From the NCBI GenBank assembly GCA_017507105.1, contig JAFWBM010000027.1, positions 186,001 to 250,000 of the forward strand: DNA of 64,000 nucleotides, written 5' to 3'. This document shows, piece after piece, positions 21,875 to 59,418 of this stretch. How positions within the stretch are numbered: position 1 is the stretch's first letter; each line of letters opens with the position of its first letter. The stretch is from Bacteroidaceae bacterium (GTDB lineage: Bacteria; Bacteroidota; Bacteroidia; Bacteroidales; Bacteroidaceae). Below the pieces are notes generated by a model. It did no database searches. It worked only from the letters and a program-made list of their open reading frames with translations, and was not told the origin of the DNA. A program made the position numbers and the translations under genes.

Positions 21875-22067
21875 GCAAATATAGTAACAAACGAGCGAGA
21901 TAGACAAAGTTTACTTTGGCATTTCACAGCGAGTGAAGACTATGTTCGCGATTTATCGCAAATATAATAAACAAACGAGCGAGATAGACAAAGTTTACTT
22001 TGGCATTTCACAGCGAGTGAAGACTATGTTCGCGATTTATCGCAAATATACAAACAAATGAGCGAGA
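21875..22067. repeat. 84-bp promoter-bearing tandem repeat array, locus 1 (2.3 copies)
   Basis: Copies at 21875-21957 (83 bp), 21958-22041 (84 bp) and a partial copy to about 22067. The first two are nearly identical. Each holds a dyad CAAAGT-TT-ACTTTG and a dyad GCGAT-TT-ATCGC, and begins with GCAAATATA, which is a -7 element on the minus strand. The same unit recurs at 59158-59418. The rest of the intergenic region, 22068-22257, is AT-rich and holds the uvrB promoter region (TATCTTAG at 22225-22232). Confidence 0.92.
21876..21908 (-). promoter_or_regulatory. Promoter of the GH16 gene embedded in the 84-bp repeat
   Basis: On the minus strand TTTG (21905-21908), 21 bp, then TATATTTG (21876-21883) matches the Bacteroidota consensus. 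Predicted start near 21869 gives a leader of about 77 nt. The -33 lies in a dyad of the repeat. A second -7-like TACATTTG occurs at 21854-21861. Confidence 0.65.
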
Positions 22068-22257
22068 AATATCAAGCTAGCTTTAATATTTTCAATGCAA
22101 ATGCAGGATATATTAGTGTAACAACTCAAAATTCAAATAAACAGACACATCTTATTTAATATTACCTCCAAAATAAGAAAGAAGTTTAACAGCAACAATT
22201 GTATATTCATATTGTAATTTATATTATCTTAGCAAGATTTTCAAAATAAGACATAGG

Positions 22258-24279
22258 ATGAACTTTGAACTAATATCGGACTACAAACCTATGGGCGACC
22301 AACCCGAGGCTATCGCGCAATTGGTTGATGGCATTAAAAACGGTACACATGCACAAACGTTGCTTGGTGTTACAGGCTCGGGAAAGACATTTACAATGGC
22401 AAATGTCATAAAGGAGATAAACCGCCCTACCCTTATCTTGAGTCACAATAAGACTCTGGCTGCACAGTTGTACAACGAATTCAAAGGTTTCTTTCCAAAT
22501 AATGCTGTCGAGTATTATGTATCATACTACGACTATTATCAGCCCGAAGCATACATACCATCAACTGACACATATATAGAGAAAGATCTTGCCATAAATG
22601 ACGAAATAGATAAGTTACGTCTATCGGCAACATCGGCACTATTGTCGGGACGTAAGGATGTTGTTGTAATCTCATCCGTATCATGCATATACGGAATGGG
22701 TAACCCTGCCGACTTCTATAATAACGTTATAGAAGTGAAGATGGGTATGAAGCTCGACCGCAATGTTTTCCTAAGACAACTTGTAGGAAGTCTATATATT
22801 AGAAACGATATTGAACTCGGACGTGGAAATTTTCGCGTCAAAGGAGATACTGTAGAGGTAAGCCTTGCATATAGCGACCATATATTGCGTGTTACATTTT
22901 GGGATGACGAGATAGACGGTATCGAAGAGATTGACCCCGATACAGGTATACGTATAACAGATTTTGACGAGTATAAGATATATCCGGCAAATCTCTTTAT
23001 GACAACTAAAGAGAGCACCATGCGCGCCATAATAGAGATAGAGAACGACCTTGCCGAACGTACTGAATATTTTAGGGAGATAGGAAAACCTTTCGAAGCC
23101 AAACGTCTGCATGAGCGTGTCACATATGATGTGGAGATGCTACGTGAACTTGGGCACTGCTCGGGTATAGAGAACTACTCACGATATTTCGATGGACGAC
23201 AACCCGGCACACGACCATACTGTTTGCTTGATTTTTTTCCAAAGGATTTTCTTCTTATTATAGATGAGAGCCACGTAAGTGTACCACAGATACATGCCAT
23301 GTATGGTGGTGACAGAGCACGTAAGAGTAACCTTGTAGAGTTTGGTTTCAGGCTTCCTGCTGCATTCGATAACCGCCCTCTAAAATTCGAGGAGTTCACA
23401 GAACTCACACATCAGGTTATATATGTAAGTGCCACCCCCAACGACTACGAGTTAATGGAAAGCGGTGGTGTTGTTGTGGAGCAGGTAATACGCCCTACCG
23501 GACTATTGGATCCTGTAATTGAGGTACGACCAAGCAAAAATCAGGTTGATGACCTGATGGAGGAGATACAGATTAGAAGCGAACGCGATGAAAGAGTTTT
23601 GGTAACAACCCTTACAAAGCGTATGGCCGAGGAACTTACCGATTATCTTCAGAAGAATGGTGTACGATGCAACTATATACACAGCGACATAGAGACCCTC
23701 GACAGAATACAGATAATGACCGACCTAAGAGAAGGTATATACGACGTATTGATAGGAGTAAACCTATTACGTGAGGGATTGGACCTACCCGAAGTCTCTT
23801 TGGTTGCGGTACTTGATGCCGACAAACAAGGATTCCTGCGCGACGAGCGTTCACTGACACAGACTGCCGGACGAGCTGCACGAAATGTCAACGGACTTGT
23901 CATATTCTATGCAGAAAAGATTACAAGCAGCATGCAAAAGACTATGAATGAGACCAACCGCAGAAGAGAGAAACAGATTGCATACAACAAAGCAAATGGT
24001 ATAACTCCCACCCAGATAAAGAAACAGATAAGCAATATTCTTGCTCAAGATAAAAAGAATACAGGAAAGAGCCTATCTTACGCTTTCGATAACACACAAC
24101 CGGCAATAGCATGTGATCCCATTGTAGAGTACATGACTCCCCAACAACTCGAAAAGAGCATTGCACGCACAAAGCGCTTGATGGAGAATGCAGCCGAGAA
24201 GATGGACTTCATAGAGGCAACACAGTACCGCGACGAAATGTTCAGGCTGCAAGAACTGCTTAAGAAGAAAAAGGATTGA
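22258..24279 (+). CDS. uvrB: Excinuclease ABC subunit B
   Basis: 673 residues, full length. Walker A LLGVTGSGKT (35-44), the DNA-inserting beta-hairpin segment YYDYYQPEAYIPSTDTY, helicase motif DESH (near 339), VLIGVNLLREGLDLPEVSLV and motif VI QTAGRAARN, then a C-terminal UVR motif (about 630-665) for UvrA/UvrC contact. With UvrA it verifies helix-distorting lesions and loads UvrC for incision in nucleotide excision repair. Transcribed alone or with the MATE gene 57 bp downstream. Confidence 0.98.
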   Translation: MNFELISDYKPMGDQPEAIAQLVDGIKNGTHAQTLLGVTGSGKTFTMANVIKEINRPTLILSHNKTLAAQLYNEFKGFFPNNAVEYYVSYYDYYQPEAYIPSTDTYIEKDLAINDEIDKLRLSATSALLSGRKDVVVISSVSCIYGMGNPADFYNNVIEVKMGMKLDRNVFLRQLVGSLYIRNDIELGRGNFRVKGDTVEVSLAYSDHILRVTFWDDEIDGIEEIDPDTGIRITDFDEYKIYPANLFMTTKESTMRAIIEIENDLAERTEYFREIGKPFEAKRLHERVTYDVEMLRELGHCSGIENYSRYFDGRQPGTRPYCLLDFFPKDFLLIIDESHVSVPQIHAMYGGDRARKSNLVEFGFRLPAAFDNRPLKFEEFTELTHQVIYVSATPNDYELMESGGVVVEQVIRPTGLLDPVIEVRPSKNQVDDLMEEIQIRSERDERVLVTTLTKRMAEELTDYLQKNGVRCNYIHSDIETLDRIQIMTDLREGIYDVLIGVNLLREGLDLPEVSLVAVLDADKQGFLRDERSLTQTAGRAARNVNGLVIFYAEKITSSMQKTMNETNRRREKQIAYNKANGITPTQIKKQISNILAQDKKNTGKSLSYAFDNTQPAIACDPIVEYMTPQQLEKSIARTKRLMENAAEKMDFIEATQYRDEMFRLQELLKKKKD

Positions 24280-24336
24280 CGCTACAGCTCAGCTGTATAG
24301 CCCTGCATACACAGACCTTTAAAACACTCAACCCAG

Positions 24337-25665
24337 ATGAAGTCACAAATATCCAATAAGGAAATCTGGAGTATTGCCCTACCTATTATGTTGGGAAATA
24401 TGGCCCAGACGATTATTAATTTCACAGATACCGCATTCTTGGGGCACCTCGGTGTGATAGCTTTGGGAGCCTCAATGTTAGCCGGACTATTTTATTTTGT
24501 ATTCACAACAATTGCAGCCGGCTTTGCTGTGGGAATTCAAATTATTGTGGCGCGTCGTTTTGGAGAAAAAAACCACGAAAGAATAGGAATAATCTTCGGG
24601 CATGGCTCTCTTTTTGTTTTGATATTGGGTGCGATTCTGTTTTCCGTATTATATTTCTTCTCAGACCATCTGCTGCTTTGGCTTATTGACTCGCAAAACA
24701 TCTACGAGGCTTCATTGGATTATATAAAATACCGTCAGTTCGGAATAATTTTTGTCTGTTTCAATTTCTTATACCGGGCTTTATATGTGGGAATCTCTAA
24801 TACAAAAGTCATCACATACTCCACCATAGTAATGGCCATCGTCAATATAATTCTGGATTATTGCCTGATATTCGGAAATTTGGGGTTACCGGCTATGGGC
24901 ATAGGCGGTGCAGCAATAGCATCGCTCTGTGCAGAGGTCTCTGCATTTTTTTTCTTTACATTATACAGCCATATCACATTAAGAAAGAGAGGATTCAACT
25001 TATTCAAAGTTCATAAATTGGAATCAGGACTAATGCGTAGGATATTGAAAATATCCACACCGACGATGATACAACGACTCTTCTCTTTCAGTGTATGGTT
25101 TATCTTTTTCGTACTTATAGAAAAGATGGGAGAGACTGCTACCGGAATATCGTCAATAACAAGAAGCATTTATATGATTCTAATCACACCCTGTTTTGCA
25201 TTCTCGACAACCACAAATACGCTGGTAAGCAGAATAATAGGCGAAGGATACACCAATCAGGTTTTCTCGACAATAAGTAAAGTGCTTAAGAACTCTCTTT
25301 TATGTACAATACCTATTGTGGTATTTGTTGCAGCTTTCCCTACACAGATAGCCGGTATTTATACCGATGATATGGATTTTGCAAAACTGGTTGTTCCCTC
25401 TATTCTAATGATATGTAGCGGTACTATTTTCCAATGCATCGGTAATGCCTATTTCGAAGCGGTTTCCGGTACAGGAAACACTACAGCTGCGTTGTACCTC
25501 GAGGCTGTAATCCTTGTTATCTATATACTGTTCATAATGGCAATGACCCATCTTACCACAAGAGTAGAATGGGTCTGGTCTGCCGAAATTCTATACGGAG
25601 CATTGCTCGGAATAATTTGCTACCTTTACATGAAATTTGCAAAGTGGGACAAAAATTGTGTATAA
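24337..25665 (+). CDS. MATE family multidrug/metabolite exporter
   Basis: 442 residues with twelve predicted membrane helices in two six-helix halves. The N-terminal ALPIMLGNMAQTIINFTDTAFLG segment and the mid-protein repeat TPTMIQRLFSFSVWF fit the MATE pattern. Such carriers export cationic or planar compounds by H+ or Na+ antiport across the inner membrane. 57 bp after uvrB on the same strand. The substrate is not predictable. Confidence 0.92.
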   Translation: MKSQISNKEIWSIALPIMLGNMAQTIINFTDTAFLGHLGVIALGASMLAGLFYFVFTTIAAGFAVGIQIIVARRFGEKNHERIGIIFGHGSLFVLILGAILFSVLYFFSDHLLLWLIDSQNIYEASLDYIKYRQFGIIFVCFNFLYRALYVGISNTKVITYSTIVMAIVNIILDYCLIFGNLGLPAMGIGGAAIASLCAEVSAFFFFTLYSHITLRKRGFNLFKVHKLESGLMRRILKISTPTMIQRLFSFSVWFIFFVLIEKMGETATGISSITRSIYMILITPCFAFSTTTNTLVSRIIGEGYTNQVFSTISKVLKNSLLCTIPIVVFVAAFPTQIAGIYTDDMDFAKLVVPSILMICSGTIFQCIGNAYFEAVSGTGNTTAALYLEAVILVIYILFIMAMTHLTTRVEWVWSAEILYGALLGIICYLYMKFAKWDKNCV

Positions 25666-25735
25666 AAACTGCCTGCTATAAAAAATTAAAAGCTGAATCG
25701 TTATACCAACATAAAATTGAGTCCTATAGACTGTT

Positions 25736-27025
25736 TTATTTTCTTGTAACAGGGAAAAGTATAGACAATATTATGACTGCACCCACACACATTGGATAAT
25801 AAAGATTGGGGATTATTGCCAATGGGGAAACAGCTGCAAGACCTGATGCCATAAGCAACTGTGCGCCATAGGGTAGCATACCTTGTACAAAACAAGATGT
25901 AGTATCGAGCAGACTTGCCGAACGGCGCGGAGATATATTGAAACGATGAGCTATATCACGTGATATAGAGCCCACTGTAAGTATGGCAATTGTATTATTT
26001 GCCGTACATATATTTGCCAGCGCAGTAAGCAATGCTATAGCTCCCTCTGCAAGACGACGTGAATGTATCTTTGCAGTTATAATACGTATAAGAAAATCTA
26101 TTCCTCCGTTAATGCGGACAAGTTCAAGCAAGCCGCCGGCAAGCATTGTTACGATTATGAGTTCGCACATTGACGAGATACCATCACCGCAAGTTGTAAA
26201 GAAACTTATCACATCGAACTGCCCAAATACTATACCTATTATAGCTGCCACCAATGTTCCCAATATAAGAACAGCCAGAACATTAACTCCCAACAATGCA
26301 GCAATGATAACAAGAAGATATGGTACCACCTTAATAAAATCGAGCATTGCAATAGGAGCCGACTCTATGTTGCCAATTCCTGCTCCGCTAAAAGCATATA
26401 ATAACAATGCACATACAGCAGCAGGGATAACAAGATATATATTGGTAAAGAACTTGGAACGCATAGAGCATCCTTGTGTCTGTGTCGCAGCAATTGTTGT
26501 ATCGGATATAAAAGAGAGATTATCGCCAAAGAAGGAGCCTCCAACCACAATAGCCACCAGCCATGCGACATCGCATCCTAATTGCGAGGCAAGTGCGGTA
26601 ACCACCGGAGTGAGTGCAACCACAGTGCCTACAGATGTACCTATTGACATTGATATGAAACAGGATGCCACAAATATTCCTGCCGGCAGGAAATTACTTG
26701 GAACAAAACAAAGTGTAAAATTAACTGTAGCATCTACTGCACCCATAGCCTTAGCTGTTGCTGCAAAAGCACCTGCCAACACAAAGATCCAGACCATGTA
26801 CATGATACGGGTATCAGCAGCTCCTTTAGAGAAATTATCTATGCGACGAGCAAGGGTTTCACCACGTGTTATACTTATTGCATATATGGACGCCACAACA
26901 AATGCAACCGCAATAGGTATGCGATAGAAATCACCGGCAACAATTGAACCGGCAAGATATATTGTAAGTAACACCGCTATAGGGGATAGGGCCAAAAGAC
27001 CTTTAATTGTTCGCTTGCCTCTCAT
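25736..27025 (-). CDS. NhaC-family Na+/H+ (or solute/cation) antiporter
   Basis: 429 residues, about eleven to twelve membrane helices. Motifs typical of the NhaC/arsB-like superfamily: FISMSIGTSVGTVVALTPV, GGSFFGDNLSFISDTTIAA and a C-terminal ANNTIAILTVG. Members exchange Na+ for H+ or couple export of organic acids or amino acids. Final gene of the minus-strand run beginning with mtaB; its ATG is 7 bp after the RsmI-like stop, suggesting coupling. Confidence 0.9.
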   Translation of the reverse strand: MRGKRTIKGLLALSPIAVLLTIYLAGSIVAGDFYRIPIAVAFVVASIYAISITRGETLARRIDNFSKGAADTRIMYMVWIFVLAGAFAATAKAMGAVDATVNFTLCFVPSNFLPAGIFVASCFISMSIGTSVGTVVALTPVVTALASQLGCDVAWLVAIVVGGSFFGDNLSFISDTTIAATQTQGCSMRSKFFTNIYLVIPAAVCALLLYAFSGAGIGNIESAPIAMLDFIKVVPYLLVIIAALLGVNVLAVLILGTLVAAIIGIVFGQFDVISFFTTCGDGISSMCELIIVTMLAGGLLELVRINGGIDFLIRIITAKIHSRRLAEGAIALLTALANICTANNTIAILTVGSISRDIAHRFNISPRRSASLLDTTSCFVQGMLPYGAQLLMASGLAAVSPLAIIPNLYYPMCVGAVIILSILFPVTRK

Positions 27026-27031
27026 TTCACT

Positions 27032-27736
27032 TTACTTATATAACAAAAATATACATGGTATCTTGGATAGTTCGGGGAGCTTTCCCTTCCACTCTTTAAC
27101 TGTACGAGCCTGCACAAATTCATCGCTACAGGTGAGATTGGCAGCTATACACAATTTTGTCTGCGGACGACAGTTCTTGAGTATATCCTCAATCATCTTG
27201 GCATTACGGTATGGAGTCTCTATAAACAACTGTGTCTGATGTTCATTATATATGCGCTGTTCCAACATACGCAACTTGCGTGAACGTTCATCGGGTTTTA
27301 TAGGTAGATAGCCATGAAAAGCAAAGCTCTGGCCATTGAATCCGGATGCCATAATAGACAGTATTATGCTTGATGGACCTACGAGAGGTACCACCTTAAG
27401 CCCTTTACGTTGAGCTATAGCAACTACATCGGCACCGGGATCAGCTACGGCAGGACATCCGGCCTCCGATATTACCCCCATAGGATTACCATTCAATAAC
27501 GGTGTAAGATAACCGGCTATATCCTGTGGTGATGTATGTTTGTTCAGTTCGTAGAACTGTGAACCATCAATATCGAATTGCGGATCTACCTGACGTAGGA
27601 AACGACGGGCAGTACGCACATTCTCCACAATAAAATGGCGTATTCCCGCTATAATTTCGCTATTATATGCCGGCAAGACGTTACACAAAGGAGTATCTCC
27701 AAGTGTGACAGGCAAAAGATATAATGCAGTCTCCAT
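27032..27736 (-). CDS. RsmI-like SAM-dependent methyltransferase (tetrapyrrole methylase fold)
   Basis: 234 residues from ATG 27736; an in-frame start further upstream would overlap the DUF3267 stop and adds residues outside the fold. ALYLLPVTLGD replaces the usual LYVVATPIGN start of RsmI, and VISEAGCPAVADPGADVV corresponds to the RsmI SDAG-P-SDPG loop, followed by VPLVGPSSIILSIMASGF. RsmI 2'-O-methylates C1402 of 16S rRNA. This is the shorter, divergent form found in Bacteroidota; its target may be the same or another RNA. Confidence 0.82.
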   Translation of the reverse strand: METALYLLPVTLGDTPLCNVLPAYNSEIIAGIRHFIVENVRTARRFLRQVDPQFDIDGSQFYELNKHTSPQDIAGYLTPLLNGNPMGVISEAGCPAVADPGADVVAIAQRKGLKVVPLVGPSSIILSIMASGFNGQSFAFHGYLPIKPDERSRKLRMLEQRIYNEHQTQLFIETPYRNAKMIEDILKNCRPQTKLCIAANLTCSDEFVQARTVKEWKGKLPELSKIPCIFLLYK

Positions 27737-27750
27737 ATAATAATCTATTG

Positions 27751-28386
27751 CTATTTTTGTTTGACAAATGCCACCAGACCACACTCGTAAGGATGATCGA
27801 GATAAAGCACACTAGCCATCTTTGGTCGGTGAAACAATAACCTCACAACAACAAGGAAATCACCTCCACCGGCAAGGATAAGTATCTGCGAGAAAATGAG
27901 TAGTGATAGATTTGCTGTAGCAGCAGCCACCATTCCCGGTAGAAAGCCTAACAGAATAGTCGGCATAAGCGCTCCGATTACATATTGCCATTTCTTAAGC
28001 GTTGACGAACAGGTGCAATATGGGGTAAGAGCCTTCCATATTACACCAAACTCGATAGCCTTGCGTCCTTCCGATGCAAAAATGCCAAATGTAATTCCAT
28101 GTATAAGTTCATGTAGCACTATTGCAATCAAAAGAAACAGTGTAAACAACAACGGATGTATTACCAATGTATTAACATAGGAACAACCGTTAATGACATA
28201 GTATATATATAAAAAGAGAAGGTTCAGCGGCAAAGCCAACAGAGGACCGTATATATTTGCACCTATTATCGAGAAGAAAAGATTATGCTTCTCGTAACCC
28301 TCTCTGTACATCTCGTCACACTTTTCCTCAAATCTTCTTTTGCGGCGCTCTTCAGCCTCTGTAAGCCTCCTTTCATCGTTTTTCAT
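27751..28386 (-). CDS. DUF3267 membrane protein with putative zincin motif
   Basis: 211 residues. A charged N-terminus (1-33) precedes four or five membrane helices. HELIH at 92-96 lies at the end of one helix and fits the HExxH metal site of DUF3267 proteins, proposed to be membrane metallopeptidases. Substrate unknown. It sits 7 bp after the GT2 gene and 14 bp before the RsmI-like gene in a tightly packed minus-strand operon. Confidence 0.85.
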   Translation of the reverse strand: MKNDERRLTEAEERRKRRFEEKCDEMYREGYEKHNLFFSIIGANIYGPLLALPLNLLFLYIYYVINGCSYVNTLVIHPLLFTLFLLIAIVLHELIHGITFGIFASEGRKAIEFGVIWKALTPYCTCSSTLKKWQYVIGALMPTILLGFLPGMVAAATANLSLLIFSQILILAGGGDFLVVVRLLFHRPKMASVLYLDHPYECGLVAFVKQK

Positions 28387-28393
28387 TTGTATC

Positions 28394-29416
28394 TCATTTT
28401 CTTTTCAACATGGTAAAAAATTTGCATCGGCACACATAGTATCTCCATAGGATAGAGAAACGGCTTCTCTGAGGAATATCCTCCAATATTGCAGCCTGCA
28501 TATTCCCATTCCTATCATCTTTATAATTCTCCTTTACCTGCTTAAATTCCCGACGCGCATCTATAACAGCCTTATAGTTGGCATAATCGCCCGTCAACAA
28601 AAACTTCAATGCTGCAACATAATCCAGGACCCTACGAACAAACATTACATATGCATACTCCTTATCTGGCAGATTTTTGTATAACATCAACAGATTATTC
28701 CTGAAGTTAAGAAATGTCTTACGCGGATTGTTATAGTTGAGCGTTGCACCACCCAAATGATATACCGTACTGCATGTGACAGCAACGACACGTCTTCCAC
28801 GAGCACGTATGCGCCAACACAAATCTATCTCTTCCATATGCGCAAAAAAACGTCCATCAAGCCCACCTACACTCCAATAATCTGCAGAACGTATCATAAG
28901 AGCAGCTCCTGTTGCCCAGAATATATCACACATTGTATCGTACTGGCCCAAGTCCTCTTCTATTGTGTCGAATATACGGCCACGACAATATGGATAGCCA
29001 TAACGATCTATAAAACCACCGGCTGCACCTGCATATTCAAAATGGCTTTTGCGTTTATAGTCGAGCAGTTTTGGTTGACAGGCAGAAATGGTATTATCGG
29101 ACTCCATTACGGAGAACATTGGCTCTATCCATCCCTCTGTCACCTCTACATCAGAGTTCAACAACAGATAATAGTCGGATTTGACTTGTTCGAGGGCGCG
29201 ATTATATCCCTCGGCAAAGCCATAATTCTTATCTAACTTTATCAACTGCACCTGAGGAAATTTAACCCGCATAACCTCTACTGAATTATCTGTAGAGGCA
29301 TTATCAGCTACAATAACACGTGCTATAGGAGTGCTGTTACGCAACACAATCGGCAGAAATCGTTTAAGCATCTCTGCACCATTATAATTGAGTATTACTA
29401 CAGCTATACTTTTCAT
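28394..29416 (-). CDS. Family 2 glycosyltransferase
   Basis: 340 residues. GT-A fold: VVILNYNGAEMLKRFLP at the start, VIVADNASTDNS near 35, then YYLLLNSDVEVTEGWIEPM with the metal-binding DxD equivalent (SDVEV), and HMEEIDLCWRIRARG further on, the ED-type catalytic motif of rhamnosyltransferase-like GT2 proteins. No membrane anchor. Likely adds a sugar in cell-surface polysaccharide synthesis in the cytoplasm. It is unusual that its neighbours (mtaB, DUF3267) are not glycan genes. Confidence 0.9.
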   Translation of the reverse strand: MKSIAVVILNYNGAEMLKRFLPIVLRNSTPIARVIVADNASTDNSVEVMRVKFPQVQLIKLDKNYGFAEGYNRALEQVKSDYYLLLNSDVEVTEGWIEPMFSVMESDNTISACQPKLLDYKRKSHFEYAGAAGGFIDRYGYPYCRGRIFDTIEEDLGQYDTMCDIFWATGAALMIRSADYWSVGGLDGRFFAHMEEIDLCWRIRARGRRVVAVTCSTVYHLGGATLNYNNPRKTFLNFRNNLLMLYKNLPDKEYAYVMFVRRVLDYVAALKFLLTGDYANYKAVIDARREFKQVKENYKDDRNGNMQAAILEDIPQRSRFSILWRYYVCRCKFFTMLKRK

Positions 29417-29423
29417 AGTGGAG

Positions 29424-50846: not shown

Positions 50847-50876
50847 TAAAACAATTGTAACAAAACAGGTTTAACT

Positions 50877-50995: not shown

Positions 50996-51027
50996 TTTGA
51001 TAATTATCACTCATTTATATATCTTTG
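50996..51027 (+). promoter_or_regulatory. Consensus promoter of the glycosylation cassette
   Basis: TTTG (50996-50999), 20 bp, TATCTTTG (51020-51027), 38 bp before the first ATG. Confidence 0.7.
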
Positions 51028-51065
51028 TATCTTATAATATTTGTTAACTCACAACAATCAAAACA

Positions 51066-52334
51066 ATGAGCAATTTAAAGCCAAACAATAAATGGCAAAT
51101 AGCCTATATTTTGATGTTCGCTCCGTTCCTGGTAACAATAATATCGCACATATTCCTTGGAAAGGCCAGATTGGATGCTGACACATGGCAAATAACTGAA
51201 GTGCTAATAAACTATCAGGGTGGTTTCGTAAGGCGTGGACTTATAGGAGAGATTATATATCAACTGAGCAACAATTTTGGAATAAACACCATATTCATGG
51301 TATATCTTTTTTCCATAGCCTCCGTTGTTATATTCTTCTATTTAATAATCAGAGACACTATAAAAAAGGGATACTCCATATTATTACTTCCAACAGCAAT
51401 GTTGCTTTCGTCACTCTTCGTTTCCGGCCATTGGGTGAGAAAGGATGTATTCATAATGTTACTCTTCTATGCAATAGTACGTCTGCTCAAGAACAAGAGT
51501 TTCATTAACTATATTGCTATAAATATATTGCTGGTTATAGGTACTCTATCTCATGAAATAATTTTATTCATTGCTGCACCGATATTGTTAATTTCACAAC
51601 TGTCACACGACAATAAACGAATAAATATTGGAAAGTTTGTGAAAGGAATTGCGACATCTGTTGTATGTTACTTCCCGGCGCTTATTGCAGGCATATTGGT
51701 TGCCATAAACAAAGGTAACAGTGCTACAGCCCAAGCTATTTGGGATTCATGGACTTGTATAGGGGTATTCAACAGCGAAATACAGGGTGCAATAGAAGGA
51801 ATTGGATGGACAGGTGAAAAAGCTATCGAATACGGCACTGTAGTATGGAGTACAATACGTTGCGGTGTCTACTACCCTATTATGTGGTCGGTATTGGCTT
51901 TATCTGCATTTGTCATTTTTGTTTGGATGTATAAACTGAAGCCCCAGATTTTGGGATATAAGCCGTATAACGATTTTGACACACAGGAATCGGCATATAT
52001 AATAATTCTACAGTTTATAGCAATACTTCCACTCTTGGTTGTATTTGCCGATACCAGCCGTCTTTTCTTCTATGTAGTAATGTCGGCATACATAATAAGA
52101 CTTTTTGATGATAACAATAAATATACATCACTATTTGGCAAAATGCCACAATACATAAGCAAGAAAATGAATACTGTTGAAGAGTACATCATCAACCACA
52201 AGAAATCATTTATTGCATTTTCATTCATTATAGGCTTGCCATCAATAAGTGTCTCGGCCTTGGAACATGTTGTATTACATGGACAGATAGGCTATTTCGT
52301 CAAATCCATACTCGATTTAATAAAAGCATTATAA
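51066..52334 (+). CDS. Polytopic membrane protein, probable GT-C-like glycosyltransferase
   Basis: 422 residues with about ten membrane helices. A conserved-looking motif follows the first helix: LINYQGGFVRRGLIGEI (about 48-64), seen in membrane proteins of polysaccharide clusters; SGHWVRKDVF and GTLSHE follow in later loops. No domain assignment is certain. First gene of a four-gene operon whose other products look like a sugar mutase, a lipid-linked sugar synthase and a flippase, so by position it is the candidate transferase that uses the lipid-linked sugar outside the inner membrane (GtrC-like role). Confidence 0.7.
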   Translation: MSNLKPNNKWQIAYILMFAPFLVTIISHIFLGKARLDADTWQITEVLINYQGGFVRRGLIGEIIYQLSNNFGINTIFMVYLFSIASVVIFFYLIIRDTIKKGYSILLLPTAMLLSSLFVSGHWVRKDVFIMLLFYAIVRLLKNKSFINYIAINILLVIGTLSHEIILFIAAPILLISQLSHDNKRINIGKFVKGIATSVVCYFPALIAGILVAINKGNSATAQAIWDSWTCIGVFNSEIQGAIEGIGWTGEKAIEYGTVVWSTIRCGVYYPIMWSVLALSAFVIFVWMYKLKPQILGYKPYNDFDTQESAYIIILQFIAILPLLVVFADTSRLFFYVVMSAYIIRLFDDNNKYTSLFGKMPQYISKKMNTVEEYIINHKKSFIAFSFIIGLPSISVSALEHVVLHGQIGYFVKSILDLIKAL

Positions 52335-52352
52335 TCTAATCATTATATCCAC

Positions 52353-53588
52353 ATGAAAAAAGCAGCAATAATTGGGGCCGGTATATCAGGATTATCAACA
52401 GCACACCTTTTAAAGGATAGATACGATTGTACCATATTCGAAAAAGAAGAGACACCCGGTGGACTAATAAGATGCAGACGTGTGAACGGCAGCCTCTTTC
52501 ATATATGTGGAGGACATATATTCAATTCCAAGCGTCAGGATGTCCTCGATTGGTTTTGGAGTATATTTAACCGTGAAGAGGAGTTCCAGAAAGCCGATCG
52601 CAACTCGGTTGTATTCATGGCCGATGGAAAACATATACCCTATCCCATAGAGAATCACATATATCTGTTCGACAACGAAACACAAAAACTATTTATACAG
52701 GATTTGCTTTCCATTGCCAAGAACGAAGGCTATGAGCCACATAACTTCGAAGAGTTCCTTCGCAACCGTTTCGGAGAGACACTATACAATATATATTTCA
52801 AGCCATATAACGAGAAGGTGTGGAGACGCAATCTCAAGAGTGTACCATTATCATGGTTGGAGGGCAAACTGCCTATGCCTACAGTTGAAGAGATGATTTT
52901 CAACAATATCAACCAGGTAAAAGAGAAGAATTTTGTTCATGCAACATTCTGGTATGAAAAGGAGAACGGCTCACAGCACATTGCCGACAAACTCTCGCAA
53001 GGCTTAAACATTAAATACAACAGCAATATTGAATCTATTGAAAGAAGAGGTAATAAATGGATTATCAATGAAGAAGATTTCGACACTGTTGTATTCTGCG
53101 GTAACATCAAACAGCTGCCCACATTGCTTAAAGGTGTAGAGATAACAGAATACAAAGAAAAGATAGATGCCCTTGAATATCATGGAACAACTGCAGTCTT
53201 CTGCCAAATAGAGAAGAACAATTACAGTTGGATATATCTTCCCGATAACAAATACGAATCGCATCGTATAATATGTACCGGTAATTTTGCGGCATCAAAC
53301 AATGCGCCCGATACAATGACAGCAACGGTAGAATTTACCGACGAGATATCTAAAGATGATATTATGGAGCAGTTGGGCAGAATACCCATGAACCCCAAAT
53401 ACATCGACCATCAATATAACAAATACACATACCCTATCCAGGATGCAGATACACGTAACATGATAGCATCACTAAAAAGCGAACTCGCCAAAGAAGATTT
53501 CTTCTTCACTGGCCGTTTTGCCGATTGGGAATACTATAACATGGATGTTGCTATAGGTGCAGCAATGGATCTATGTAAAACTTTATAA
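52353..53588 (+). CDS. UDP-galactopyranose mutase-like FAD flavoprotein
   Basis: 411 residues. N-terminal FAD-binding GxGxxG: AAIIGAGISGLSTAHLL, with Glu-containing IFEKEETPGG and the FHICGGHIFNSK loop (GPHIFHT in Glf). Further correspondences: FGETLYNIYFKPYNEKVWRR (Glf: YTEKQW) and FFTGRFADWEYYNMDVAIGAA (Glf: GRLAEYKYYDMHQ). Glf interconverts UDP-galactopyranose and furanose. Differences in several active-site segments leave open another UDP-sugar or an oxidase role. 18 bp after the membrane protein, 10 bp before the GT2. Confidence 0.75.
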   Translation: MKKAAIIGAGISGLSTAHLLKDRYDCTIFEKEETPGGLIRCRRVNGSLFHICGGHIFNSKRQDVLDWFWSIFNREEEFQKADRNSVVFMADGKHIPYPIENHIYLFDNETQKLFIQDLLSIAKNEGYEPHNFEEFLRNRFGETLYNIYFKPYNEKVWRRNLKSVPLSWLEGKLPMPTVEEMIFNNINQVKEKNFVHATFWYEKENGSQHIADKLSQGLNIKYNSNIESIERRGNKWIINEEDFDTVVFCGNIKQLPTLLKGVEITEYKEKIDALEYHGTTAVFCQIEKNNYSWIYLPDNKYESHRIICTGNFAASNNAPDTMTATVEFTDEISKDDIMEQLGRIPMNPKYIDHQYNKYTYPIQDADTRNMIASLKSELAKEDFFFTGRFADWEYYNMDVAIGAAMDLCKTL

Positions 53589-53598
53589 TGAAAAAGCT

Positions 53599-54333
53599 AT
53601 GAACAATAAGACTTTTGCAGTAGTAATACCACTGGCCAACGAATCGGACACATTTGATAAATTTACATCAAGGCTCATAGAGACTCTAGATTCCATTGTA
53701 CAGAAAAGCACTGTATACATGGTAATAGACAATGTATCGAAAGATAACACTTTGGACCTATGCAAAGCCTTATCGGAGCGTGACAACCGCTTTGTCACTG
53801 TATGGGCACCCGAGAACAGAAATGTTGTAGATGCCTATCTACGCGGTTACAAAGAGGCTCTAAAAGGTAATTACGACTATATAATAGAGATGGATGGAGG
53901 TTTGTCACACGACCCCCATGCACTTCCTATGTTTATAAGAAATCTTTATGAGGGACACAACTGTGTATATGGAAGCCGATTTATTAATGGCGGTTCTATA
54001 TTTGACTCCAATTGGAAACGCAGTGTATTGTCTCGCGGAGGAACAATTCTGTCAAACCTGCTATTGGGTACAAGCATGAAGGATATGACATCAGGGTATA
54101 TGGGTTTCCATTCAGAGGTAGCACGTAAATTTGTAGAATATGGACTTTTGTCCAAGGCACATTTCTATCAGACAGAAGTACGCTATCTTCTAAGAAAAGA
54201 GCGCAGTATAGAGGTTCCCATCCACTATATGGCTCCATCGCCAAGAGTCTCTAAGAATGCAATAAAGAACTCCTTTTCTGTATTGTTCCACTATTTCTTC
54301 CTACGCCTTAAAAACAAAAGCATAAATCTATAA
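53599..54333 (+). CDS. Dolichol/undecaprenyl-phosphate sugar synthase-like GT2 (GtrB/DPM1-like)
   Basis: 244 residues from ATG 53599; an in-frame GTG at 53557 would overlap the previous gene. FAVVIPLANESDTF start, VIDNVSKDNT, IIEMDGGLSHDPHALP (the DxD-type site with SHDP of DPM1-like enzymes), VYGSRFINGGS and SRGGTILSNLLLG. No C-terminal membrane helices, so a soluble or peripheral enzyme. It probably transfers a sugar from a nucleotide donor to a polyprenyl phosphate. Third gene of the cassette, 2 bp before gtrA-like. Confidence 0.88.
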   Translation: MNNKTFAVVIPLANESDTFDKFTSRLIETLDSIVQKSTVYMVIDNVSKDNTLDLCKALSERDNRFVTVWAPENRNVVDAYLRGYKEALKGNYDYIIEMDGGLSHDPHALPMFIRNLYEGHNCVYGSRFINGGSIFDSNWKRSVLSRGGTILSNLLLGTSMKDMTSGYMGFHSEVARKFVEYGLLSKAHFYQTEVRYLLRKERSIEVPIHYMAPSPRVSKNAIKNSFSVLFHYFFLRLKNKSINL

Positions 54334-54335
54334 TA

Positions 54336-54770
54336 ATGAGTTTTATTATTAAAGCCTCACATAAAATTGCATATACATTAGGCATACACAACAAGCTACT
54401 GAAACAGGCCATCAAATATCTGTTTGTAGGTGGAATATGCACTGTATTGGACTTTGCCACCCTATTTATATTGGCAGAGTTCTTTAACATAAACTACATT
54501 GTGGCATCATCCATCTCGTTTTTGTGTGGTGTAATACTGAATTATTTTATATGCACGTATTGGGTTTTTGACGTACACGTTGTCAAGAAAAAAAGATACG
54601 AGTTCCTTTTGTACCTTTTTATATCCATAATAGGACTTGCAGTCAATACAGTTGCAATATGGGCTCTCACTGAATATTTGGGAATATACTTTATGCTCTC
54701 CAAACTGCTTGCTACAGGATTTACATATTTTTGGAACTTCTTTGCACGTAAATATCTATTGCATAATTAA
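54336..54770 (+). CDS. GtrA family flippase-like membrane protein
   Basis: 144 residues, four membrane helices. KYLFVGGICTVLDFATLFIL and SSISFLCGVILNYFICTYWVF, with the late FTYFWNFFARKYLL, are GtrA signatures. GtrA proteins flip polyprenyl-phosphate-linked sugars across the inner membrane. Last gene of the cassette, 2 bp after the GT2; a 48-nt perfect palindrome ends the operon. Confidence 0.92.
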   Translation: MSFIIKASHKIAYTLGIHNKLLKQAIKYLFVGGICTVLDFATLFILAEFFNINYIVASSISFLCGVILNYFICTYWVFDVHVVKKKRYEFLLYLFISIIGLAVNTVAIWALTEYLGIYFMLSKLLATGFTYFWNFFARKYLLHN

Positions 54771-54781
54771 ACAACATTATA

Positions 54782-54829
54782 TCAGCAAACAGTACTCCGA
54801 AACTTAAGTTTCGGAGTACTGTTTGCTGA
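54782..54829. terminator. Terminator of the glycosylation cassette
   Basis: Perfect 48-nt palindrome, 24-nt arms with no loop, 11 bp beyond the gtrA-like stop. Confidence 0.85.
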
Positions 54830-54899
54830 CAACACTGTTTCTATGATTAAACTTTTATAGTGATAATTTGAATATTACCATGTAACATAAAATGTTCAA

Positions 54900-55208
54900 T
54901 CATTTCTTGTCAGGAACACCAAAAGTCTGCCACATCTCCTGAGAATAATTCTCTTTTATAGACGTCTTGATATCTACATACAATTCCTTTAAAGCCTGAA
55001 GATCTCCATGCGCCTTCTCACGTGCTATCCTCAAACTCTCCTCAGCCTCATCCTGCAGATGTCCCGACGTCTCTAAAGAATCACACAAGGAAGATAGTCT
55101 TGCAACATCAATCACTATACCCTTTTTTATTAAAAGGTCTGTTCCATTTTTTACACCTTCGATAAGACTATGTGCCTTAGCGATAGGTTCCAAGTAAATC
55201 TTATTCAT
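54900..55208 (-). CDS. Hypothetical helical protein
   Basis: 102 residues, predicted almost wholly helical and acidic (SLCDSLETSGHLQDEAEESL), no signal or membrane segment, C-terminus ending TFGVPDKK. Family not recognised. Monocistronic, facing away from fabG, with a 260-bp AT-rich intergenic region between. Could be a small cytoplasmic structural or partner protein. Confidence 0.6.
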   Translation of the reverse strand: MNKIYLEPIAKAHSLIEGVKNGTDLLIKKGIVIDVARLSSLCDSLETSGHLQDEAEESLRIAREKAHGDLQALKELYVDIKTSIKENYSQEMWQTFGVPDKK

Positions 55209-55411
55209 CTTATTTCTATAATTATATGATTGCTTGTGTAAATTTATAAAAACAAAAATTAATGTACAAGACTATAAAACAGTACACACAAGAAGCATAA
55301 TAGCAGTTTAATCAATTAGTAATCAGTGCAATATTCCATTTGTTAAATTTTGTTATAATTTATTCCTAATAAGTAATTGTATTGATTAAAAGTAGCTTTT
55401 CTTTAAAAAAA

Positions 55412-55443
55412 TTGGCATTGTAAGAAGGAATCTGTTATCTTCG
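55412..55443 (+). promoter_or_regulatory. Promoter of the fabG gene
   Basis: TTG (55412-55414), 21 bp, TATCTTCG (55436-55443), 25 bp before the ATG. The -7 has C in place of the consensus T. The 55209-55411 sequence upstream is AT-rich with no other feature. Confidence 0.5.
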
Positions 55444-55468
55444 CATAGTAAATAAAAGATATTGGAAT

Positions 55469-56215
55469 ATGAAAATATTAGAAGGCAAAGTGGCACTTAT
55501 AACCGGAGCCACAAGAGGAATAGGTAGGGCTATAGCGATTAAGTTCGCCGAGGCCGGTGCAAATATTGCTTTTACATACAGACAAAAAAACGGAGCAGCC
55601 GAACAGTTGGAAAACGAAATATCGCAATTTGGTGTAACATGTAAAGGCTACGCAGCAGATGCAGCAGAATACACTGCAACAGAGGAGGTCGTAAAGTCGG
55701 TACAAGCTGATTTTGGGAAAATAGATATTCTTGTAAACAATGCAGGAATTACAAAAGATGGTCTTCTCATGAGAATGAGCGAGCAACAATGGGACGATGT
55801 CATAACAACAAACCTAAAATCGGCATTCAACTTCACACGTTCGGTTGTACCTATTATGGCAAAACAACGTTGCGGAAGTATTATAAACATGTCATCGGTT
55901 GTAGGTGTGAGCGGAAATGCCGGACAATGCAACTACTCAGCATCAAAAGCCGGCCTTATCGGATTTTCAAAATCTGTAGCAAAGGAGATGGGACCTCGTG
56001 GAATACGTGTCAACTGTATTGCCCCAGGATTCATCATGACAGATATGACATCAGCACTATCGGAAGAGATGCGTGATGCATGGTGCAAGACTATTCCATT
56101 ACGCAGAGGAGGCACTCCCGAAGATGTAGCAAACGTTGCACTATTCCTAGCAGGCGATCTTTCGTCGTACGTTACCGGACAGGTTATAAACTGTTGCGGC
56201 GGTATGAATTGCTGA
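55469..56215 (+). CDS. fabG: 3-oxoacyl-[acyl-carrier-protein] reductase
   Basis: 248 residues. Short-chain dehydrogenase: TGATRGIGRAIA (NADPH-binding TGxxxGxG), NNAG motif in VNNAGIT, catalytic Ser in SVVGVSGNAGQ, and YSASK with Tyr and Lys four apart. The Rossmann fold and the FabG-type insert (RVNCIAPGFIMTDM) favour FabG over other SDRs. Reduces 3-ketoacyl-ACP in fatty-acid elongation. Monocistronic between a promoter at 55412 and a strong terminator. Confidence 0.94.
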   Translation: MKILEGKVALITGATRGIGRAIAIKFAEAGANIAFTYRQKNGAAEQLENEISQFGVTCKGYAADAAEYTATEEVVKSVQADFGKIDILVNNAGITKDGLLMRMSEQQWDDVITTNLKSAFNFTRSVVPIMAKQRCGSIINMSSVVGVSGNAGQCNYSASKAGLIGFSKSVAKEMGPRGIRVNCIAPGFIMTDMTSALSEEMRDAWCKTIPLRRGGTPEDVANVALFLAGDLSSYVTGQVINCCGGMNC

Positions 56216-56228
56216 TTTTATTGCAAAA

Positions 56229-56286
56229 CTGAGAACAAACCGATAGCACAGCGGCTACATCCGCTGTGCTATCGGTTTGTTCTCAG
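56229..56286. terminator. Bidirectional terminator between fabG and the TrmH-type methyltransferase
   Basis: 26-nt perfect arms (56229-56254, 56261-56286) with a 6-nt loop. The right arm contains the last codons and stop (56269-56271) of the minus-strand gene. Confidence 0.9.
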
Positions 56287-57072
56287 CTCCCAAAAAGCAA
56301 CTGCAGCAGCCGCTGCAACATTAAGCGAGTCGACACCATGCGACATTGGAATACGAACAACATAATCGGCATCGGATATTACACAATTTGAAAGACCATC
56401 ACCCTCGGTACCCATTATAATAGCCAAGCGCTCTTCCGCTGCCAAACGAGAATCATCTATTGAAATAGAGTTCTCTTCCAATGCCATTGCTGCGGTTTTG
56501 AAACCGTACCTATTCAATGATGAAAGCGGCTCTTTTATCCAGGTCCAGGGGAGACGAAATACCGAACCCATCGAGACTCGGACTGCACGTCTGTTAAGAG
56601 GATCACATGATGTTGGAGTGAGCAGAAGTGCATCAATACCCAACGCTGCTGCCGAACGGAAAATTGCACCGATATTGGTTGTATCTACCACACCGTCAAT
56701 AACAACAATGCGTTTGGCATTAAAAGTAATCTCCTCTACACTCTTGAAAGGTTTACGTTTCATTGCACACAGTACACCTCTGGTAAGAGTATAACCTGTG
56801 AGTGAGGACAAAAGTTCCCTGCAACCTGTATATATAGGTATGTCAGCACATTGCTCTATTATAGAGGAGGCATCGCCTTTTATATGTTTCTCTTCACACA
56901 TCATTGCATAGGGTTCATAACCGGAATCGAGCGCCACCTGAATAACTTTTGGACTCTCGGCAATAAAAAGTCCGGCATCATGCTCAATGCTTTGACGTAA
57001 CTGTGCCTCGGTGAGTGTAGAAAATATCTCCACACCTTTGTGTGCAAGCGAATTAATCTTTATTATCGGCAT
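56269..57072 (-). CDS. SpoU/TrmH-type RNA 2'-O-ribose methyltransferase
   Basis: 267 residues. N-terminal substrate-recognition part (about 1-95) and SPOUT domain (about 110-265) with VVDTTNIGAIFRSAAALGIDA (motif 1, conserved Arg), IIMGTEGDGLS (motif 2) and RIPMSHGVDSLNVAAAAAVAF (motif 3, conserved Ser-Leu-Asn-Val). SAM-dependent methylation of rRNA or tRNA ribose; the exact nucleotide cannot be told. Last gene of glnA-GNAT-trmH. Confidence 0.9.
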   Translation of the reverse strand: MPIIKINSLAHKGVEIFSTLTEAQLRQSIEHDAGLFIAESPKVIQVALDSGYEPYAMMCEEKHIKGDASSIIEQCADIPIYTGCRELLSSLTGYTLTRGVLCAMKRKPFKSVEEITFNAKRIVVIDGVVDTTNIGAIFRSAAALGIDALLLTPTSCDPLNRRAVRVSMGSVFRLPWTWIKEPLSSLNRYGFKTAAMALEENSISIDDSRLAAEERLAIIMGTEGDGLSNCVISDADYVVRIPMSHGVDSLNVAAAAAVAFWELRTNR

Positions 57073-57076
57073 TAAA

Positions 57077-57574
57077 TTACTCTTTAGATATTGTCAAATG
57101 GTAGGCATCGCGTTCAGATCCGTTGGCAAGCAATATGACTCCGCAACGGGTGAAACCATATTTTCCGAGTATGTGGTGCATAATTACATTGTCGCGATGT
57201 GTATCTATACGTATTGTAGAGGTGTGTTCGAATGCCCAGTCAAGGAGTCTCTTCGCGAGACCTCTTCCAGGTTCCGATACAGCTATACGATGTATTACAT
57301 AATATGGATTATCATCGGGCCACTCTCCATTATAGATAACAGCATATGTTGGATCGGGACCTTGTATGAAAGCCATTGTAGCATGAATATTGCCTTTTTC
57401 ATCGCACATTACATAACTATTCCCCGACTCTATATCGGAGGATAGTATCAAAGGCGAGGGATATCCCTCGCCCCATTGTCTGGTATTTCCACTGTCACGC
57501 ATTATCTGCTTGGCATAGGCAAACAATTCCATCAATGCAGGAATATCGTTTAGTGTCGCTTTACGTATTATCAT
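57077..57574 (-). CDS. GNAT-family N-acetyltransferase
   Basis: 165 residues from the ATG at 57574, which overlaps the glnA stop as ATGA; an ATG two codons upstream is possible. MIIRKATLNDIPALMELF is a typical GNAT start, and YVIHRIAVSEPGRGLAKRLLDWAF contains the acetyl-CoA-binding R/QxxGxG/A equivalent, followed by IRIDTHRDNVIMHHILGKYGF. Substrate unknown. The coupling to glnA is notable but common in the phylum. Confidence 0.88.
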   Translation of the reverse strand: MIIRKATLNDIPALMELFAYAKQIMRDSGNTRQWGEGYPSPLILSSDIESGNSYVMCDEKGNIHATMAFIQGPDPTYAVIYNGEWPDDNPYYVIHRIAVSEPGRGLAKRLLDWAFEHTSTIRIDTHRDNVIMHHILGKYGFTRCGVILLANGSERDAYHLTISKE

Positions 57575-59073
57575 CCACAATGAAAATATTTGTGCACTAG
57601 CTTTAACATCTCTTCTCTATTACTGCCTATTTCACTACGCAAGGTTCTATCCTCATAAGAACGCAGACGCCTAATAATACCATCAATCATTGCTTTACTG
57701 AAGACATTATATTGCTCGAACACTGCACGTTGCGATTCCAAACAGTCGGCAGACGCCTCACAGCTATCGGGCAACTTAGCCAGAGAATTCTGTTTCTCCT
57801 CGTTCTCTTTCTTATGAATATTTACATTAACATATGTACGACGTGCTATCTCAAGAGCATTATCCATCTCAAAACCATGACGGCAGGCGACCGCCAGTCC
57901 TGCTATCAACTGATATACATCTGCCGAGCCATCGGGCGAACGCATCTCGACTGTCTGTTTCTGTGTAGTATCATAATTACTATACTCCTCTAGTGGATTT
58001 GCAATCTTACACATATCGCTTTTGGCAGCCCAACCTAGCGGTACACGCACTAGGACAGAACGGTTACGGTCGCCCCAACAAACATTAGTGGGGGCCTCTT
58101 GATGCGGAACAAGACGGAAATAAGATGTGGGATTGGTATTTCCAAACGAAGTTATTGAGGGTGCAAGCTCCATCATTCCGGCAATGGCCTTAAGAGCTGT
58201 CTCTGATAACTCGGAGCCGTTGAGCATCTGGTTGACTCCATCTTTTACAATGCGCATGTGGATATGTAACCCTGAGCCGGCTTTGCCTGCCGAAATTTTG
58301 GGTGCAAATGTGATATCATAGCCATACCTGAAGGCCAGATTACGTATTATCCATTTTGCAATCATCAACTGGTCGGCAGCATCCTGTGCTTCTACCGGGA
58401 GAAATTCTATCTCATTCTGTTCATATACAAGATTATCTATAGTAAAATTACCGACCTCGGAGTGACCGTATTTAATCTCTCCTCCTGCCTGCGCTATGTA
58501 TGACATACATTCAGCACGGAATTCATTGAACTTGGCATATGGTGCCGACTCATGGTAGCCTTTCTGATCGGTAGCCGGGAAAAGGTTGCAGTCGGGAGCT
58601 ATTACATAATATTCCAATTCGCCCATCGCCTGAAATTGCATGCCTGTTACCTCTTCGAAAGCCTTACATGCCTTGCGCAAGGTATTCTCGGGAGAACTCT
58701 CCAAGAGCTCACCATCTTTATTGAAATAGGAGCATAACATAGAGAGTGTCGGAATTTGTGCGAAAGGATCAAGAAAGGCTGTAGAGAAACGTGGCAAGAC
58801 ATACAAATCGCTGCTTCCTGCCTCTATAAAGGGAAAGAGACTCGAACCATCTACACGCTCACCACATGTCAATATTGTATCAAGATAAGCAGCGTTGTTA
58901 ATTACAAAATTAAGGGTCTTCAGCCTACCATCACCAGCCGGATACATGAAGTTTACCATACGTATCCCATTCTCTGAGATATAACGCACTATGTCAGCCT
59001 TAGTAAAATCCTTAGATGGTTTTCCTAAATAGGCCACTACTCTATTGGGAGTAAGTTCTAGTTCTTTATTCAT
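57571..59073 (-). CDS. glnA: Glutamine synthetase, type I-like
   Basis: 500 residues. FPAGDG-type N-terminal, MGELEYYVIA (metal-binding Glu), GNFTIDNLVYEQNEIEF, AGKAGSGLHIHMRI (conserved His) and NPTSYFRLVPHQEAPTNVCW with GDRNRSVLVRVPL (catalytic Arg). A longer form than the about 440-470 residue GSI of Gram-negatives. It makes glutamine from glutamate and ammonia with ATP in the cytoplasm. Transcribed from the promoter embedded in the 84-bp array upstream; GNAT is coupled downstream. Confidence 0.92.
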   Translation of the reverse strand: MNKELELTPNRVVAYLGKPSKDFTKADIVRYISENGIRMVNFMYPAGDGRLKTLNFVINNAAYLDTILTCGERVDGSSLFPFIEAGSSDLYVLPRFSTAFLDPFAQIPTLSMLCSYFNKDGELLESSPENTLRKACKAFEEVTGMQFQAMGELEYYVIAPDCNLFPATDQKGYHESAPYAKFNEFRAECMSYIAQAGGEIKYGHSEVGNFTIDNLVYEQNEIEFLPVEAQDAADQLMIAKWIIRNLAFRYGYDITFAPKISAGKAGSGLHIHMRIVKDGVNQMLNGSELSETALKAIAGMMELAPSITSFGNTNPTSYFRLVPHQEAPTNVCWGDRNRSVLVRVPLGWAAKSDMCKIANPLEEYSNYDTTQKQTVEMRSPDGSADVYQLIAGLAVACRHGFEMDNALEIARRTYVNVNIHKKENEEKQNSLAKLPDSCEASADCLESQRAVFEQYNVFSKAMIDGIIRRLRSYEDRTLRSEIGSNREEMLKLVHKYFHCG

Positions 59074-59157
59074 AACAGGATTGACTTGAACAACAATTGA
59101 AAAAAATGTTTTTACTTTAATACTTTTTCAGTAAGTGAATTAGAGATTCACAATAAG

Positions 59158-59418
59158 GCAAATATAGTGACAAACGAGCGAGAAAAACAAAGCTTGCTTT
59201 AATTTTCTTACAGCGAGTGCAAACTATATTCGTGATTTATCACAAATATTCAGACAAACGAGCGAGAAAAACAAAGCTTGCTTTAATTTTCTTACAGCGA
59301 GTGCAAACTATATTCGCGATTTATCGCAAATATTCAGACAAACGAGCAAGATAGGCAAAGTTTACTTTGGCACTTCGCAGCGAGTGCAAACTATGTTCGC
59401 GATTTATCGCAAATATAT
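59158..59418. repeat. 84-bp promoter-bearing tandem repeat array, locus 2 (3.1 copies)
   Basis: Copies at 59158-59241 (84 bp), 59242-59325 (84 bp), 59326-59408 (83 bp) and a 10-bp start of a fourth. Copies 1 and 2 share CAAAGC-TT-GCTTTA; copy 3 has the locus-1 form CAAAGT-TT-ACTTTG. The 3' dyad reads GTGAT-TT-ATCAC in copy 1 and GCGAT-TT-ATCGC in the others. Internal copies have AATATTTG instead of TATATTTG. The remainder of the 59074-59505 gap is AT-rich. Confidence 0.92.
59159..59191 (-). promoter_or_regulatory. Promoter of glnA embedded in the 84-bp repeat
   Basis: On the minus strand TTTG (59188-59191), 21 bp, TATATTTG (59159-59166). Predicted start near 59152 gives a leader of about 79 nt. 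Same arrangement as the GH16 promoter at 21876-21908. Confidence 0.65.

Follow-up and report, generated by a model that had tools for sequence, protein, structure and literature searches.

Two arrays in a Bacteroidaceae contig

The DNA analysed here, a 64,000-nucleotide (nt) stretch of contig JAFWBM010000027.1 from a Bacteroidaceae bacterium (the window; the genome it comes from is termed the host genome), carries two arrays of a small non-coding repeat, one 5′ of a gene for a GH16 glycoside hydrolase and the other 5′ of the glutamine synthetase gene glnA (Table 1). A reading made from the sequence alone (the sequence-only reading) had described near-identical units of 83–84 base pairs (bp) in tandem before both genes, and Tandem Repeats Finder and the letters themselves confirmed this: the period is 84 in each case, with 2.3 copies and 95% matches at 21875–22067 (array 1) and 3.1 copies and 88% matches at 59158–59416 (array 2). 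A BLAST search with an array 1 unit recovered array 2 at E 8.5e-27, a likeness far beyond chance. The third unit of array 1 is degenerate; the array runs on to about 22134, and its outermost box (22127–22134) departs from TAnnTTTG, the consensus of the promoter −7 box. The array 2 boxes at 59243–59250 and 59327–59334 both read AATATTTG.

TTTG-N21-TATATTTG is present on the minus (gene) strand in the gene-proximal unit of each array, just as had been stated, with the TTTG at 21905–21908 in array 1 and at 59188–59191 in array 2. From the box to the start codon we measured 83 nt for GH16 and 85 nt for glnA, close to the leaders of about 77 and 79 nt predicted earlier. The unit length had also been read as keeping the copies helically in phase; spacings among relatives range from 72 to 87 bp, with 83, 84 and 85 bp commonest (39, 35 and 28 cases), so that the 84-bp period is typical, there is no fixed length and helical phasing is not supported as a rule.

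Table 1 Features of the two arrays and the genes behind them (window coordinates; aa, amino acids)
Feature	Position	Strand	Basis
Array 1, 5′ of the GH16 gene, three units	21876..22134	-	Covariance model; Tandem Repeats Finder
Array 1 units	21876-21966, 21959-22050, 22043-22134	-	Covariance model, E 6.3e-19, 1.1e-17, 2.4e-11
−7 box TATATTTG closest to GH16, at the right end of the gene-proximal unit	21876..21883	-	Sequence
Internal −7 box TATATTTG between array 1 units 1 and 2	21959..21966	-	Sequence
Internal −7 box between array 1 units 2 and 3	22043-22050	-	Sequence
Hairpin 2 of the array 1 proximal unit, CAAAG-TAAA-CTTTG	21905..21918	-	Sequence; covariation
Conserved core CTCGCTCGTTTG, between −33 position and −7 box	21888..21899	-	Sequence; alignment A1
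GH16 glycoside hydrolase with GEVED domain, 914 aa, gene 3′ of array 1	19048..21792	-	Pfam PF00722, PF20009
Array 2, 5′ of glnA, three units	59159..59417	-	Covariance model; Tandem Repeats Finder
Array 2 units	59159-59250, 59243-59334, 59327-59417	-	Covariance model, E 5.0e-18, 2.0e-17, 3.0e-16
Gene-proximal −7 box TATATTTG of array 2	59159..59166	-	Sequence
Farthest-upstream −7 box TATATTTG in array 2; candidate for the native target box	59410..59417	-	Sequence; array boundary
Glutamine synthetase (glnA), 500 aa, gene 3′ of array 2	57571..59073	-	Pfam PF00120, PF03951

Dispersal through the host genome

Searching the host genome with the covariance model (E ≤ 0.001) gave 52 units, which we grouped into 30 sites, and the array 1 unit had 45 BLAST matches there at E ≤ 10. 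Units at unrelated loci are 95–100% alike. At 24 of the 30 sites an open reading frame (ORF) of at least 60 aa starts past the end of the match, with its ATG 2–120 nt away at 23 sites and 225 nt away at one; the remaining six comprise one before RNase P RNA, three that reach a contig end and two (E 2.7e-11 and 1.4e-5) with no ORF within 350 nt. The match ends in TAnnTTTG at 23 of the 30 sites. Five host contigs (C3, C17, C28, C35 and C51) terminate within arrays, as is expected where short reads meet a repeat, and the true copy number is hidden there.

Pfam analysis of 16 of the 24 downstream proteins matched 15: glutamine synthetase, a sodium:alanine symporter, a release factor, a lipoate ligase, NAD kinase, a member of the tetrapyrrole-methylase family, a pterin-binding enzyme, RsmF, a LysR regulator, GH16, an HNH/Cas9-like protein, an ArsP permease, an integrase-family recombinase, a GDSL/SASA esterase and a primase. 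There is no common function and no regulon among those identified. The recombinase is presumably XerD-like. The gene for the Cas9-like protein (HNH_4, with Cas9_a just under the cut-off) lies 28 nt past a single element (L045:4011–4103, which is host contig C14:103510–103602), and the family therefore also fronts a defence-type gene.

Placement is oriented with respect to genes. Leaving aside 15 weak arrays, duplicates and arrays near locus ends, an ORF of at least 100 aa starts within 150 bp in the promoter direction at 109 of 134 evaluable arrays, compared with 27 of 130 in the opposite direction and 129 of 472 random intergenic points. Intergenic TAnnTTTG motifs outside elements have such a start in 169 of 321 cases (Fisher p 4.6e-9 versus the arrays).

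One orientation at a promoter position, a CTCGCTCGTTTG block highly conserved within the promoter spacer and a unit number that varies between close species would all suit a regulatory promoter module that is retained for the common regulator or alternative sigma factor it binds and whose copy number tunes expression, much as the sequence-only reading had supposed. The functional mix behind the units, from RNase P RNA, release factor and primase to the recombinase, the Cas9-like protein, transporters and GH16, argues against this and lends a common regulator no support. So do the restriction of the glnA array to the host genome (1 of the 26 genus loci found), core letters that vary between genera while the plan stays constant, and the scarcity of the −33 TTTG: at N21 it occurs in 33 of 188 distinct right ends. 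We judge a regulatory module quite improbable.

Structure of the unit

The element is non-coding and about 75–95 bp in size, typically around 85 bp. On the gene strand it is laid out as a TAnnTTTG box at the upstream end, a short stem whose loop is of TAAA type, a segment that we call T′ (CGAAnnTA, the near reverse complement of the −7 box), a core GCACTCGCTGTG, hairpin 2, a second core CTCGCTCGTTTG, 2–5 nt and a final box TAnnTTTG, followed by the gene. Both hairpins covary. In alignment A1, which holds 64 of 84 deduplicated units (141 before deduplication) and two window units, with perfect boxes by selection and with the two window rows lacking their first T, 93.2% of hairpin cells are paired across the 66 units; cells changed on both sides number 175 against a shuffled mean of 62, with 0 of 500 shuffles as high and slid controls at 9–11. 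The −33 TTTG, which had been read as part of a promoter, is supplied by the 3′ arm of hairpin 2 in the array 1 proximal unit, and its position is generally that of a covarying hairpin arm; in the window units it is a local trait.

Sense-strand RNA structure as the sole source of the covariation is weakened, because G.T mismatches (20) are no more numerous than A.C mismatches (37) on the gene strand with the fixed pair 7–21 excluded; structure or repair at the DNA level would fit at least as well. A known structured RNA was also rejected, as Rfam 15 gave no match above the gathering score in the window, over array 2 or over the units of seven loci.

T′ follows the letters of the boxes. In a diverse set of units it covaries with the upstream box and likewise with the downstream box. 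Among 162 units fitting the search patterns, the two boxes differ in 21 cells, and there T′ complements the downstream box in 14, the upstream box in 3 and neither in 4 (binomial p 0.013 for 14 versus 3, 17 cells). That T′ fits the downstream box where the boxes differ points to T′ and the final box as the two ends of the element itself. One mismatch in this complementarity, T.G (CGAA in place of CAAA), is itself conserved, being present in 58 of the 66 units in A1.

Filled and empty sites

For boundary calling we fetched 80 loci; a motif pair was absent from 5 and a clear boundary from 19, and 56 remained. Sixteen with flanks devoid of other repeats were chosen, the flanks were joined minus the element, and the joined sequences were searched in four genomes. 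A relative gave a junction-spanning match for 7 of the 16 sites, and in 5 of these 7 (L273, L310, L311, L331 and L333) a TAnnTTTG-like box is kept at the join; the boundary used for L310 was set one box too far upstream. At these five sites the element is inserted just 3′ of a −7 box, the empty sites carrying one box and the filled sites two. The cleanest case is L273, an 85-bp element, compared with L386, in which 34 bp are identical around the join, CTCGTTTTTACTATATTTG/CATCCAAATTAAAAT (the stroke marks the join).

One box in empty sites and two in filled ones would also be left by a classical miniature inverted-repeat transposable element (MITE) whose transposase duplicates 8–12 bp including the −7 box, in which case the downstream box would be target DNA; the sequences around the two boxes, which agree beyond chance at columns −4 to −1 and +2, +3, point the same way. 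L273 is compatible with a duplication confined to the 8 bp of the box; the two bases preceding the boxes differ there (AC versus TG), which argues against any longer duplication. Insertion 3′ of the target without duplication is compatible with L331, where the boxes differ and T′ fits the downstream one, and with L273 if the box is the element's own. The general preference of T′ for the downstream box speaks against the downstream box being target DNA, and no fixed duplication length is seen. A classical MITE seems unlikely to us. An early idea, a 12-bp target-site duplication, is weakened by the same preference and by L331.

Two close species also differ in unit number. The flanks of seven sites shared by genomes G022 and G041 are 85–99% identical, and unit number differs at 3 of the 7; two more sites, L289 and L295, look shared. 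Local tandem duplication by slippage with concerted evolution, and no mobility, would account for arrays, for such changes in unit number and for the concerted change of boxes seen in one shared array (L275/L293, below). It is at odds with units 95–100% alike at unrelated loci and is contradicted by the empty sites, unless these are precise deletions, and we find it hardly credible.

The promoter of RNase P RNA allows a comparison across the genus. Matches were obtained in 39 of 44 genomes; 30 loci were fetched and 29 have at least 220 nt upstream. Five of the 29 carry elements (G000, G008, G029, G017 and G023), the core letters of G008 and of G017/G023 being clearly distinct, and this promoter appears, from those letters, to have been struck in separate lineages. 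Neither motif matching nor inspection reveals an element upstream in the other 24, and in 22 of them a box, TAnnTTTG or TAnnTTCG, lies within 110 nt. The RNase P elements of G017 and G023 (L231, L232) belong to a diverged subfamily, GGCACCTCGGCA...CTGCGCTCGGTTT, with the common plan; there are about two units in G017, where the locus ends, and one in G023.

A probable mobile element with a landing site of its own

We conclude that the units are probably copies of a mobile element of the Bacteroidales, small, non-coding and non-autonomous, which inserts directly 3′ of TAnnTTTG and itself ends, on the right, in another TAnnTTTG. The spreading promoter-bearing module of the sequence-only reading survives in part: the unit is dispersed, bears a −7 box, stands before genes in one orientation and varies in number at shared sites. 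Insertion behind an existing −7 box had been missed.

We propose that the element inserts just 3′ of a native −7 box, the native box and its upstream region remaining in place, and that the element's own box would then precede the gene at about the old distance from the start. Given its sequence and its distance to the gene, this final box is likely to be an active promoter. Because the right end would again be a target, further insertions, or unequal recombination, could build head-to-tail arrays in one orientation, and the array period would equal the element length if the next insertion used the element's own box. As T′ follows the letters of the box, it may help to find or hold it, pairing with the target, the right end or both during insertion, like guide sequences in single-strand DNA transposition; the conserved T.G mismatch would stop the guide from acting as a box in reverse orientation. 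The mover would act in trans and may be a general host enzyme. A bolder version, possible though doubtful, is that these are Bacteroidales-wide minimal mobile elements whose 8-nt guide, T′, anneals to the −7 box while this is single-stranded in the open transcription complex; a host or other enzyme would then insert about 85 nt of DNA immediately behind the box, and the fresh box would recreate both promoter and landing site.

Several observations weigh against a mobile element of this kind. No mover was found among Y1 transposases and reverse transcriptases, the only enzyme families searched; 4 arrays are the most that share a gene family within 2.5 kb; and no long version with matching ends was recognised among the matches listed (the one distant pair of ends, in L089 at a separation of 3.75 kb, looks like two short units that are nearly complete). 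Seven of the 30 host matches end in something other than TAnnTTTG. The agreement between upstream and downstream box contexts (compared in 132 of 168 arrays, 130 of them distinct) would be expected from target-site duplication or homogenisation as well. In a two-unit array shared by G022 (L275) and G041 (L293), all three −7 boxes have changed alike, TATCTTTG versus TATATTTG; this concerted change and the matching contexts mean that homogenisation is also at work among the boxes. Two joined sites (L276 and L289) gave uninterpretable matches and 9 of the 16 gave none, selection against harmful insertions could be part of the promoter bias, and units were called by fuzzy motifs, which makes the counts approximate.

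The search for a mover covered the host genome (93.6% complete) and the 44 genus genomes. Y1 transposase (PF01797) has no match in the host and is present in 5 of 44; reverse transcriptase (PF00078) likewise has none in the host and is present in 17 of 44. A driver of either family was therefore set aside, as was, for want of a reverse transcriptase in the host, a retroelement such as a group II intron. In its insertion behind a short motif, its hairpins and its guide-like complement, the element does resemble the published logic of IS608 and REP sequences (PMC6006769), and these traits would suit an element of the IS200/IS605 or REP type driven by a Y1 (HUH) transposase. The 39 genus genomes in which Y1 is undetected, like the host, all bear the element (many of these assemblies are incomplete), there is no GTAG-type foot and T′ lies away from the hairpin foot. 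Movement by Y1 is very improbable in our view.

Breadth across the Bacteroidales

All 44 genus genomes have matches (E ≤ 0.001). Model R1, run on 120 relatives, matched these 44 and 10 of the 76 others, and loci from six of the others have the common plan with other core letters. Model R3, a covariance model built from 40 diverse units, matched 37 of 393 sampled genomes of the order, in 22 of 205 genera (E ≤ 1e-4). Three of the R3-positive genomes (G313, G345 and G459) consist of one contig each, and because matches occur in these, the family is no assembly artefact. Of twenty loci from nine R3-positive genomes, every one ends in TAnnTTTG, the upstream end is likewise TAnnTTTG in 17, and an ORF of at least 60 aa starts within 232 nt at all 20. 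A pattern scan of named genome contigs found at least 117 loci, all titled metagenome-assembled Bacteroidales; those titles that name an animal name ruminants. The array 1 unit had no blastn match in plasmids or phages, a G060-type unit had none in plasmids, and viral contigs gave 0 exact pattern matches.

Other repeats accompany the family. A second one (GCGAAGTTTAGCTGCGCTCATTGCGTG... and like), of similar plan and probably a related family, stands directly 5′ of some elements (L279, L280 and L283 in G022; L337 and L348 in G027). In the hybrid units L053, L102 and L159 the right part is swapped for a TTTTGGCTTCGCCGAAGTTC-like stretch resembling the G060-type hairpin, possibly through recombination between families. 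Similar repeats probably occur in Prevotella genomes. The window also holds a separate tandem repeat at 14553–14691 (period 63 bp, 2.2 copies), within a minus-strand ORF at 14248–15156.

Comparison with known systems

Promoter boxes are usually viewed as targets of proteins; here they would be landing sites. In an order that is widespread in animal guts, such a family would naturally supply new promoters and let promoter copy number vary, with insertions before vital genes such as those for RNase P RNA, release factor and primase. The sequence alone reveals its target, its guide-like complement and its hairpins, making it a testable case of target finding by tiny non-coding elements, and the arrays matter for genome assembly and promoter annotation, given the host contigs that end inside them. 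We found no description of the element in the literature; most subscription journals were outside the search, so it could be in print.

The BrickBuilt MITE of Porphyromonas gingivalis, described as 23-nt units with a leader and a tail, 12-bp terminal inverted repeats and, for one copy, a 4-nt duplication, lies 49–591 nt from the nearest genes and has been discussed as a possible putative mobile promoter (PMC4596501). It shares with our element the order Bacteroidales, small intergenic size and internal tandem repeats that expand and contract, and BrickBuilt itself has promoter activity; what is available of its description mentions neither a T′ nor insertion behind a −7 box (PMC4596501). A MITE would be expected to have terminal inverted repeats related to a partner transposon; T′ and the right-end box are complementary ends, and no partner transposon was recognised. 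If putative mobile promoter is taken loosely as promoter-like sequence before unrelated genes (PMC4596501), this is what we met at 30 host sites.

The REP/RAYT system offers dispersed extragenic hairpin repeats, some in tandem clusters, and a guide-like pairing logic (PMC6006769, PMC3733652). REP sequences are short palindromes that end in GTAG or CGTC and have a Y1 gene as their partner (PMC6006769, PMC3733652), whereas the present element stands in one orientation at promoters, and alignments A1 and A2 have no such invariant tetranucleotide at the hairpin foot. Members of IS200/IS605 likewise insert beside a short target motif recognised through base interactions, but their target is a tetranucleotide and they encode a transposase (PMC6006769); a Bacteroidetes subclass of Y1 with atypical structures is listed in the same source.

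The boxes also recall the promoter read by SigmaABfr in Bacteroides, with TAnnTTTG at −7, TTTG at −33 and a 5′ untranslated region of 52 nt in the mean and 32 nt in the median (PMC7366714; the promoter is also covered in PMC9330008). The −7 box recurs in both window arrays, at the 23 host sites and at all 20 loci of other genera, and the reported 5′ untranslated lengths (PMC7366714) are similar to the box–gene distances here; the −33 TTTG is found in both window arrays but, as noted, in a minority of right ends overall. There the box belongs to a host promoter, whereas here it is at once a landing site and part of the element.

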